DNA from: Bacteroidales bacterium
GTDB lineage: Bacteria; Bacteroidota; Bacteroidia; Bacteroidales; WCHB1-69
Direction of reading: 5' to 3'
DNA: 47,383 bases
Assembly (NCBI GenBank): GCA_016285085.1
Contig: JAEEQA010000009.1
Location: 1 to 47,383 of the forward strand
Below are positions 12,269 through 33,687 of this stretch, piece after piece (positions within the stretch are counted from its first letter, which is position 1; every line of letters starts with the position of its first letter). The notes under the pieces were generated by a model that was given only the letters and a program-made list of their open reading frames with translations, was not told where the DNA came from and did no database searches. The position numbers were made by a program, and so were the translations under genes.

Positions 12269-13234
12269 TTATTTTACAGATTTTACAATAGCCTCTACCT
12301 GACGGAGATAGTTGCGCTTTGGCTCATTGGGGGCGTACACAAAACCGTCCACGCTGATGCACTTGTTCTGGGCGTTCACGTATGAAAAATGGTAGAAGGG
12401 GCCACCCATATAGTCGTTTTCAGTTTCCCAAAGGCCGCGCATCTCCATCCCGATTTTGCTGCCGAGTTGCATCGGTTGCGCGTCGGGAAGGTCGGCCAGT
12501 CGGGTGACAACGGGATGGACCGTCTCTTTCTCGCCTTCAATGAACTTGCGGCAGAAATTGTTGCGGTCGTTGATCATGCTTTCGCGTGTGATGACAGTGC
12601 TGTCGGAGCGGTAGATCATAACGAAGCGGTCGTTGACAGCCGTGCGGTAGGCAATCCAAAGGAAGTCGTCGCCTTCACGGGCCACACTGTAGTCTTTGGG
12701 TACAGTCAGCAGAATTCCGAATTTGTCCTTGATGCGGCGTTGCAGTTCCACGTTGAGGATGGTTTCGTATGCCGCTTGTATTTTCCGTATGTCATTTTCG
12801 TACAAGGCAGTGCGGATTTCCATCTGCTGGTCCACAAAACTTTGGAAGCAGCTGTTGATATCCTTTCCCCTCACTTCGACATAAATCTGCGGATTGGCAT
12901 AGACACCTTTTGATATGTCACAGGTGGCGGAATCGTCCTGTGTGATTTCAAAACGGACGATATTGTGGTGGCGCTGCTTGTCGGCTTGGAAAAACTGCTC
13001 GTCCAGAAGCAGCACGTCGAACATCGGCTCATCCTGGTTAAGGCAGGGCTGCGGCACGCTCAGCAGTTTGCGTACGCTGTCCTGGATTTCCTGGGGCCAG
13101 ACATCTTTGTCCATAATGACCAACACCTCGTTGGCGATGCCTACGGAGGCGTTGTCCACTTTCACGGTGAACGCTTTTTTGCACGATGTCATCACTGCAA
13201 TGGCGGCGATGCATAAAACCAATATTTTTTTCAT
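12269..13234 (-). CDS. DUF4837 family lipoprotein
   Basis: Lipobox MTSCKK; VLVIMDKDVWPQEIQDSVRKLLSVPQPCLNQDEPMFDV; GLWETENDYMGGPF. Confidence 0.85.
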   Translation of the reverse strand: MKKILVLCIAAIAVMTSCKKAFTVKVDNASVGIANEVLVIMDKDVWPQEIQDSVRKLLSVPQPCLNQDEPMFDVLLLDEQFFQADKQRHHNIVRFEITQDDSATCDISKGVYANPQIYVEVRGKDINSCFQSFVDQQMEIRTALYENDIRKIQAAYETILNVELQRRIKDKFGILLTVPKDYSVAREGDDFLWIAYRTAVNDRFVMIYRSDSTVITRESMINDRNNFCRKFIEGEKETVHPVVTRLADLPDAQPMQLGSKIGMEMRGLWETENDYMGGPFYHFSYVNAQNKCISVDGFVYAPNEPKRNYLRQVEAIVKSVK

Positions 13235-30884: not shown

Positions 30885-31205
30885 TTGGAAAACTACGTTA
30901 TGTTGCAGGAAAATCACCGTATTATGACCGACGTGCCGTTGTCCTCCCTTTTGGAGGAGTTCCTGAAGAAGAACCACAAGGAGGCTGCTTTCAACGAGCA
31001 GACCGCAGTGGCGCGTTTCCCGGAACTGCTGCCCGAAAACTTCCGCTCCTACATCCAGAAGGTGCGGGTGGTGAACGGTGTACTGTTCGTCAGTTGCGAC
31101 AATGCCGCCCTTCGTTTTGAACTCACCAACCGCCGCTCGGAACTGCTGGCGCAGCTGAACGAAGGCTTCGCAGAGGCCGTGATCAGCGACATTGTGGTTA
31201 GGTAG
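30885..31205 (+). CDS. DUF721 (DciA-like) domain-containing protein
   Basis: DVPLSSLLEEFLKK...VRVVNGVLFVSCDNAALRFELTNRRSELLAQLNEGF. Confidence 0.85.
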   Translation: MENYVMLQENHRIMTDVPLSSLLEEFLKKNHKEAAFNEQTAVARFPELLPENFRSYIQKVRVVNGVLFVSCDNAALRFELTNRRSELLAQLNEGFAEAVISDIVVR

Positions 31206-31206
31206 G
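31105..31206 (+). repeat. Direct repeat copy 1: 3' end of DUF721 gene
   Basis: 102 bp aligned to 31962-32063 with 4 mismatches and no gaps. Confidence 0.95.
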
Positions 31207-31247
31207 AAAATTCCTCGCATTATTCTTTTATAAGGTATTTGATGGTA

Positions 31248-31264
31248 TTCGCAATTTTTGCGAA
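31248..31264. promoter_or_regulatory. Candidate HigBA operator (perfect inverted repeat)
   Basis: ttcgcaa-ttt-ttgcgaa just upstream of -7 box TATTTTTG (31283-31290). Confidence 0.6.
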
Positions 31265-31306
31265 CTTTTCAAAAAAAAGTATTATTTTTGCACCCGAAAG
31301 AATGAT

Positions 31307-31615
31307 ATGGAAATAATGTTTGAGAAGGATTATCTTCGCGAATTGTTTTATGATGGAGAGGCTAAGGACAAGCAGCACCGTTATCAGCCTCATATTGTGC
31401 GGAGATATGTTCGCGTGGTAAATATTTTGGATTCAGTGGGGAAAGTGACGGATTTATTTCGCTACAGGTCACTTCGCTACGAAAAATTAGTAGGCGATAA
31501 GGATGGCTTGGAATCAGTACGAGTTAATGACCAGTATCGTATTGAGTTTGAGTCATCTGCAAAAGATAATATTACCATTTGCAATATTGTAGAATTGTCA
31601 AATCATTATAAATAA
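31307..31615 (+). CDS. higB: HigB/RelE-like type II toxin
   Basis: YRSLRYEKLVGDKDGLESVRVNDQYRIEFE; followed by HigA. Confidence 0.9.
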   Translation: MEIMFEKDYLRELFYDGEAKDKQHRYQPHIVRRYVRVVNILDSVGKVTDLFRYRSLRYEKLVGDKDGLESVRVNDQYRIEFESSAKDNITICNIVELSNHYK

Positions 31616-31626
31616 GAAGGAACAAT

Positions 31627-31938
31627 ATGGGAAATTTAGGTTATGGAGCATACCCTACGCATCCAGGAGAGGTATTGAAAGATGAAATTGAGGAACGTGG
31701 CATCACCCAACGTCAGTTAGCTGATAGTATGGGTCTAACCTATTCAGTAGTCAACGAAATTCTTAATGCCCGCCGCCCACTGACGGCGAAAACGGCTCTG
31801 ATGTTTGAGGCTGCTTTGGATGTGCCGGCCGACTCTTTGATGTATCTTCAAATGAAATATAATTTACAGACGGCGAGGAAGGATGCTTCAATATTGGATA
31901 TATTGAAGCACATCAGAAAGGTGGCTGCTGTGCTATAA
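31627..31938 (+). CDS. higA: HigA-type XRE antitoxin
   Basis: HPGEVLKDEIEERGITQRQLADSMGLTYSVVNEILNARRPLTAKTALMFEAAL. Confidence 0.95.
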   Translation: MGNLGYGAYPTHPGEVLKDEIEERGITQRQLADSMGLTYSVVNEILNARRPLTAKTALMFEAALDVPADSLMYLQMKYNLQTARKDASILDILKHIRKVAAVL

Positions 31939-31961
31939 ATCCTGCTGTCTGCTTTTCCTTT

Positions 31962-32063
31962 CCGCCCTTCGGTTCGAACTCACCAACCGCCGCTCGGAAC
32001 TGCTGGCGCAGCTGAACGAAGGCTTCGCAGAGGTCGTGATCAGCGACATTGTGGTGAGGTAGG
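31962..32063 (+). pseudogene. Duplicated 3' end of the DUF721 gene (repeat copy 2)
   Basis: Encodes ALRFELTNRRSELLAQLNEGFAEVVISDIVVR*-equivalent; no start codon or N-terminus. Confidence 0.95.
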
Positions 32064-32220
32064 TTGGATGTTTTTTACGACAAATTATTCCCGCAGGGGT
32101 GAGTCATTCGAATTTTTTTGTATTTTCGCTTCCCGATTGAAAATCGGTCCTTCTTGTATATTTATTTGAGAATGAACCAGTTGTCAATTACTTTGTTGTT
32201 GACTTAAACCTTTATTGTGT

Positions 32221-33687
32221 ATGGAAAAAATCGGGTTTGACAATGAAAAGTATCTGAAAATCCAATCGGAACACATCAAACAGAGAATTTCACAGTTTGG
32301 GGACAAATTGTACATGGAATTTGGCGGCAAGCTGTATGACGACTACCATGCCAGCCGTGTCCTTCCCGGTTTCCAGCCGGATAGCAAGCTTCGGATGCTG
32401 ATGCAGCTGAAAGACGATGCCGAAATCATCATTGCCATCAGCGCGGTCGATATTGAAAAAAGCAAGATCCGGGGCGACCTCGGCATCACCTACGACGAGG
32501 ATGTCCTGCGCCTTCAGGATATCTTTACCCAGCGTGGCCTTCTCTGTCAGTCGGTGGTCATCACCAAGTTCAATGGACAGGCCAGCGCCAAGGCATATCG
32601 CGAACGCTTGGAACGCCTCGGCCTCAAGGTGTATTATCTCTATAACATTGTTGACTATCCCAATAATGTGAACCTGATTGACTCGGAGGACGGCTTTGGT
32701 CGGAACGATTATGTGGTAACTTCGCGCCCGCTGGTAGTAGTCACCGCCCCCGGTCCCGGAAGCGGCAAGATGGCCGTGTGCCTCAGCCAGTTGTACCAGG
32801 AGAACAAGCACGGCGTGAGAGCTGGTTATGCCAAGTTCGAGACCTTCCCCATCTGGAGCATCCCCCTCAAGCACCCGGTCAATATGGCTTACGAAGCGGC
32901 CACCGCCGACCTCAACGATGTCAACATGATTGACCCGTTCCATTTGGATGCGTATGGTGAGACCGCAGTCAACTACAACCGTGACATTGAAATCTTCCCT
33001 GTCTTAAACGCCATATTTGAAGGAATTTATGGTGAAAATCCTTACAAGTCGCCTACGGATATGGGAGTGAACATGGCGGGCTTTTGCATCTGTGACGATG
33101 AGGTGTGCTGTCAGGCCTCCCGTGACGAAATCATCCGTCGCTATTTCACCACCCTCTGTAACGTGGTGGAAGGAAAATCCGCTGAGCGCGAGGTGAGCAA
33201 AATCTCCCTGCTGATGAAGATGGCCAAGATTGAACCGGAAGATCGCCGCGTGGTCGGCGCTGCCCGCCTCAAAAAGGAGCAGTCGGAACTGAACTCGTCC
33301 GCCATTGAACTGGCCGACGGCACAATCATCACGGCCAAAACCAGTTCGCTCCTCGGACAAAGCGCCGCGTTGCTGCTGAACGCCACCAAGTACCTGGCCA
33401 ACATTGACCATGATGTCAAGCTGATTCCGCAGGAGATGATTGAGCCGATCCAGAGGATGAAGGTGTCGCTGCTGCACGGCAACAATCCGCGCCTGCATAC
33501 CGATGAGGTTCTCGTCGCCCTCTCCATGTTGAGCCTTCACGACGAGAATTGCCGCAAGGCTCTCGCTACCCTGCCGCAGCTGAAGGGTTGCCAGGTACAC
33601 AGCACGACGATGCTGAACGAGGTGGACCGCAAGATTTTCAAGAAATTGGGCATCGGTCTCACCTGCGAGCCGGTCCGGAAGAAATAA
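32221..33687 (+). CDS. DUF1846 (UPF0371) domain-containing protein
   Basis: GFDNEKYLKIQSEHIKQRISQFGDKLYMEFGGKLYDDYHASRVLPGFQPDSKLRML. Confidence 0.93.
   Translation: MEKIGFDNEKYLKIQSEHIKQRISQFGDKLYMEFGGKLYDDYHASRVLPGFQPDSKLRMLMQLKDDAEIIIAISAVDIEKSKIRGDLGITYDEDVLRLQDIFTQRGLLCQSVVITKFNGQASAKAYRERLERLGLKVYYLYNIVDYPNNVNLIDSEDGFGRNDYVVTSRPLVVVTAPGPGSGKMAVCLSQLYQENKHGVRAGYAKFETFPIWSIPLKHPVNMAYEAATADLNDVNMIDPFHLDAYGETAVNYNRDIEIFPVLNAIFEGIYGENPYKSPTDMGVNMAGFCICDDEVCCQASRDEIIRRYFTTLCNVVEGKSAEREVSKISLLMKMAKIEPEDRRVVGAARLKKEQSELNSSAIELADGTIITAKTSSLLGQSAALLLNATKYLANIDHDVKLIPQEMIEPIQRMKVSLLHGNNPRLHTDEVLVALSMLSLHDENCRKALATLPQLKGCQVHSTTMLNEVDRKIFKKLGIGLTCEPVRKK

Follow-up and report, generated by a model that had tools for sequence, protein, structure and literature searches.

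The window (the whole stretch of Bacteroidales DNA that was analysed, 47,383 nucleotides long) carries a predicted HigBA toxin-antitoxin pair between the replication gene dciA and a gene of the DUF1846 family, and the pair is bracketed by two direct copies of the dciA 3' end. The features of the locus, all on the + strand, are:

30900..31205, +: dciA (formerly DUF721; PF05258 DciA), complete, its 3' end forming the left repeat copy
31105..31206, +: left copy of the 102-bp direct repeat (dciA 3' end including the stop codon)
31207..31246, +: left spacer, unconserved among cassettes, its first part resembling the sequence after a stray dciA fragment in the related genome G007
31247..31306, +: higBA operator and promoter with the inverted repeat TTCGCAATTTTTGCGAA; conserved DNA begins about 60 bp 5' of higB
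31307..31615, +: higB, predicted RelE/HigB-type toxin of 102 aa (PF05015)
31627..31938, +: higA, predicted HTH antitoxin of 103 aa (TIGR02607; matches solved HigA chains)
31939..31961, +: right spacer, between higA and the right repeat copy
31962..32063, +: right repeat copy, a dciA 3' fragment without a start of its own
32064..32220, +: native upstream region of the DUF1846 gene, aligning to relatives (87-90%) from about 32100 onward
32221..33687, +: DUF1846 gene (PF08903, PF20921), the native right neighbour of dciA

A repeat search of the window returned the duplication as an earlier, sequence-only reading had described it: the two copies are spaced 857 bp apart and agree at 98 of 102 positions (96%), and the four mismatches (31115 T/G, 31118 T/C, 31177 C/T and 31199 T/G) comprise three synonymous changes and one Ala to Val. 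Identity is lost sharply at either edge of the copies, and the flank-to-flank repeat score of 184 compares with none of at least 60 among 740 random 640-bp intervals from the window, which puts the duplication beyond chance. A search of the organism's own assembly gave no third copy. That reading had placed the pair within a duplicated DUF721 3' end, and this holds under the gene's present name, with the dciA copy intact; the gene start it gave, 30885, is an upstream TTG, and the ATG lies at 30900. DciA matches PF05258 over the full domain length (53.8 bits, profile positions 1-89 of 89), and an orthologue is present in all 13 genus genomes searched, the organism's own included. Collapsing both repeats in silico yields a complete dciA that carries a single substitution, Ala to Val.

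The only gene-like ORFs between the copies are higB and higA; no transposase or integrase lies in the insert. Both products score above the curated cut-offs of their families (HigB, PF05015, 36.5 bits against 27; HigA, TIGR02607, 63.8 bits against 47.7), and HigA matches solved HigA chains, while a single-sequence search of solved structures with HigB returned no relative. The order of the genes, toxin first, and the inverted-repeat operator are those of the type II HigBA family, and only the genomic setting of this pair is unusual.

Such a setting could be produced by an assembler that joined strains with and without higBA at their common dciA end. The assembly is a 132-contig draft, and a 4% difference between the copies is what two strains might show, but the junction of higA with the right copy is continuous sequence and the same architecture is present in separate assemblies (see below), so that we consider an artefact barely credible.

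Empty sites and spacer sequences

In the nearest members of the genus, G007 and G012, the gene upstream of dciA, dciA itself and the DUF1846 gene are consecutive, with a single dciA end at the locus and no higBA; both genomes are of other species (DciA identities of 79 and 77%). Because the 136-141 bp 5' of the DUF1846 gene in these genomes align at 87-90% to the window's sequence 3' of the right copy, the right flank appears to be native, with the alignment beginning only at about 32100. By these comparisons, higBA is an apparent insertion at the dciA 3' end, at a site that is empty in the nearest relatives. Relatives with a DUF721 gene lacking higBA, for which the sequence-only reading had called, thus exist, and because of these empty alleles the arrangement cannot be the old, universally fixed duplication that it had set against its own proposal.

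That reading had further taken everything between the repeats as a minimal cassette. The gene content bears this out, but DNA similarity to close relatives extends only from about 60 bp 5' of higB through the higA stop (about 31247-31938, some 690 bp) and not over the whole 755 bp. The conserved unit consists of the inverted-repeat operator, the promoter, higB and higA, and the adjoining 40 and 23 bp are unconserved. An operator of the form TTCGC-N-GCGAA occurs in 49 of 54 testable relatives, as against 13 of 1620 background windows.

The spacers have a partial counterpart in G007. This genome carries a stray dciA 3' fragment that is 88% identical to the window's left copy, whereas its own dciA is 80% identical. 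At that site (L081, about 12780-12890; G007:C11:172808-172887) the dciA 3' end is fused to the end of dciA's upstream neighbour, and the fragment is closer to the window's dciA than to that of G007 itself, which suggests that it was transferred from some relative of the window's species. The fragment runs on, without a cassette, as gagaattccccgcAAATCCTGCT, and the window sequence before the cassette reads gaaaattcctcgca; AAATCCTGCT (31937-31946), which begins within the higA stop, also stands directly after the stray fragment. The motif ATCCTGC was absent after higA in all 81 relative loci. Both spacers match the sequence following the stray fragment, a match of about 24 nt, and on that basis we infer that the cassette may once have lain behind a related dciA allele, within host DNA, and have been imported with that flank. 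A one-step insertion does not fully explain the dciA locus, since the downstream flanks of the two copies differ and the spacers resemble host sequence behind another dciA allele.

Direct repeats at other HigBA cassettes

A genome scan recovered 80 close relatives of HigA (76-94%), mostly from ruminant-gut Bacteroidales MAGs, whose cassettes lie at many places. We compared 250 bp on either side of each of 79 testable cassettes, the window's included, with random 640-bp intervals from the same loci (n=3417) as controls. Direct repeats scoring at least 80 flanked 6 of the 79 cassettes and 12 of the 3417 random intervals (Fisher p ~2e-6; ~3e-4 with the window excluded and L121 and L124, which share a site, counted once). 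The five cassettes outside the window represent four independent places, with close flanking repeats of 51-109 bp:

L194: 109 bp, 94%
L139: 88 bp, 99%
L165: 52 bp, 96%
L121: 101 bp, 88%
L124: 51 bp, 94% (site shared with L121)

At most of the 79 cassettes scanned no flanking repeat was found. The arrangement is looser at L196, where a second copy of the 3' end of an AraC-type gene (73 bp, 93%) immediately follows higA and over 1 kb of additional DNA intervenes on the upstream side; at L109, a 33-bp terminator stands at either side of the cassette. A match at L118 was discarded as a contig-edge artefact. Genus-wide searches for the empty sites of L165 and L139 were dominated by hits to the cassette or to dispersed repeats and were set aside, and the flanks of L194 fall on separate contigs in its sole genus-mate. 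The footprint, then, is not peculiar to the dciA locus: it recurs for the same cassette family and, as described below, for toxin-antitoxin, Abi-like and AAA_14-type genes.

These data bear on two other accounts of the locus. In the first, the dciA end was duplicated earlier, or arrived with a strain whose flank differed, and higBA was inserted into the spacer afterwards in an unrelated event, the repeat being incidental. The stray G007 fragment joins both spacer sequences without a cassette, just as if higBA had slipped between them; however, unrelated repeats bracket the same cassette family elsewhere far more often than they do random intervals, and a simple tandem duplication of the dciA end is ruled out because its copies have different downstream flanks. 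We regard later entry as improbable. In the second, the locus is the remnant of an IME or CIME with a tyrosine recombinase directed at the 3' ends of genes, so that the repeats would be attL and attR and the integrase would have been lost or act in trans. There is indeed a preference for gene 3' ends at several sites, with the host gene left intact, as in site-specific integration, but the repeats differ from locus to locus and share no common recombination site (as would be looked for in an integron cassette or site-specific element), being the ends of dciA, EamA-transporter, Por-secretion-tail and AraC-type genes, terminators and intergenic DNA, and in some cases gene 5' ends, and an integrase is absent between the copies. 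An element with a single integration site is already unlikely, and a remnant of this kind is very unlikely at dciA.

Carriage on plasmids or phages was also set aside: HigA relatives there are less than 60% identical, save on one unannotated phage contig (62.5%), and a scan of viral contigs gave two relatives, the better at 64%. The window's own genome holds a second, more distant HigBA (L090, G000:C3:37161-37472; HigB 54% identity), at which a flanking repeat was not found.

Decay of the toxin with retention of the antitoxin appears to be common among these cassettes, because a single full-length higB match remains in 53 of the 81 relative loci, and it would offer another exit from addiction. 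At L214 (G538), L122 and L242 (G748), higB is internally deleted and higA is kept.

Repeats around other toxin-antitoxin and defence-like genes

Several matches among the supposedly random control intervals turned out to be other modules beside HigBA. At L137 (2711-3602), an MntA-HepT pair (PF01909, PF01934) lies between 72-bp copies of a terminator (99%) directly 5' of HigBA, and G821 (L234) provides a clean empty site, with the same terminator and HigBA, nothing between them, and both outer flanks matching. At L142, HicAB (PF05534, PF07927) lies between 54-bp copies, and a MuF_C-domain protein at L184 is also among the bracketed control matches. At L195 (4441-5020), just after higA, an antitoxin-like gene of 77 aa without a Pfam match is bracketed by copies of a gene end, that of the ribosomal protein L31 gene.

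We also surveyed 1.38 Mb of the organism's own sequence, about half of the genome, for repeats of 45-250 bp at spacings of 0.35-3.5 kb that do not fall within one ORF. Two low-complexity repeats and one HsdS-type repeat were set aside. The bracketed genes were the window's higBA, one Abi-like gene, three AAA_14-type ATPases and one HTH antitoxin-like gene; every informative repeat thus encloses a toxin-antitoxin, Abi-like or AAA_14-type gene, by classes set after inspection. The Abi-like gene (L267:8653-9898; G000:C15) stands between 108-bp copies (98%) of the 3' end of a sufS-like gene. The same site holds an AAA_14/DUF4143 ATPase in G012 and a different gene, for a large protein, in G007, so that neither genome offers an empty site for the Abi-like insert, and this gene end is an integration hotspot.

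Nested direct repeats with REP-like palindromes surround an AAA_14/DUF4143 ATPase and the HTH antitoxin-like gene at L273 (4200-6753; G000:C21). Further AAA_14-type ATPases lie in direct repeats of 45-111 bp at L316 (177-1779; G000:C65), L269 (9055-10717; G000:C17) and L194 (347-1811), and in two of these cases the repeats are copies of the 5' part of a neighbouring gene. There are six AAA_14 homologues in the 1.38 Mb, and 3 of the 5 testable ones are bracketed. The PADLOC candidate-defence models PDC-S01 and PDC-M64 match ATPases and the HTH gene of the own-genome set, with PDC-M64 models matched at L273.

Probable route of arrival and its relation to known systems

Cumulatively, we favour, at a probability of roughly three in four, a reading in which an acquired unit of about 690 bp (operator, higB and higA) integrated at the dciA 3' end with a long, 102-bp target duplication and without a recombinase of its own. 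A type II toxin-antitoxin cassette encoding no recombinase would have arrived horizontally, on a transferred piece (linear, or a small circle with the repeat) made up of higBA and short host sequence. We infer that one side was joined by homologous recombination over the gene end and that the other was closed by an illegitimate join or by template switching; the same appearance would result from a single crossover of a circle. The outcome would be a complete dciA, with a dciA 3' fragment left between higA and the DUF1846 gene. Later excision could proceed by recombination between the repeats, with retention favoured by addiction; the sequence-only reading had proposed such a RecA-dependent loss opposed by addiction, and the putative pathway is plausible.

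The closest known process is one that Kobayashi and colleagues reported for restriction-modification systems, insertion with long target duplication (PMC3874152 and PMC3031569, citing Nobusato et al., 2000, and Furuta et al., 2010). According to a review, the target duplications are long and variable, on the order of 100 bp (PMC3874152), and direct repeats of this kind permit amplification by unequal crossing-over (PMC3031569). The cases described there and those reported here share poison-antidote genes, the lack of a recombinase, variable and locus-specific repeats of about 100 bp, and empty sites in relatives. The window has site-specific repeats of about 100 bp, a single-copy empty site and no transposase or integrase; its outer flank aligns to the empty site from about 32100 on the right, and the MntA-HepT insert of L137 aligns to G821 on both sides. 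Unlike the restriction-modification insertions of these sources, however, the cargo here is a type II toxin-antitoxin pair and, elsewhere, MntA-HepT, HicAB, Abi-like and AAA_14-type genes, and the reach of such a process to toxin-antitoxin and defence-like singletons would be new.

A donor flank on one side would be accounted for by homology-facilitated illegitimate recombination, an outcome observed experimentally upon DNA uptake or conjugation (PMC3240628). As that source presents it, the process needs homology at one end only, and it would leave a donor flank together with a partly duplicated target; there it was followed experimentally, whereas here it is deduced from sequence alone. Chromosomal mobile toxin-antitoxin modules and islands are likewise known, and modules such as MNT-HEPN have made recent, clean insertions between syntenic genes (Makarova et al., 2009, PMC2701414). 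Our loci resemble these in their clean insertions between syntenic genes and in their clusters of unrelated modules, but the term "direct repeat" does not occur in the main text of that study, and adjacent modules here carry duplicated gene ends or terminators.

Given the empty sites and the recurrence of the footprint elsewhere, small genes of the higBA type appear to be mobile although they encode no recombinase. More tentatively, and with somewhat less than even confidence, we suggest that HigBA, MntA-HepT, HicAB, Abi-like and AAA_14/DUF4143 genes of Bacteroidales may share one recombinase-free mode of movement into gene ends and terminators, whose duplications of about 50-230 bp would be reused as homologous repeats for loss and re-insertion. 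If this is true, serial insertions at one terminator would build toxin-antitoxin islands. The transposase-free hopping of toxin-antitoxin and defence genes between chromosomal sites is poorly understood, and the cassette next to dciA points to a way in which such genes may adjoin a replication gene without harm to it. Its footprint (a long target duplication, an intact host gene and empty sites) is readable, and could therefore be counted across genomes and tested at the bench.
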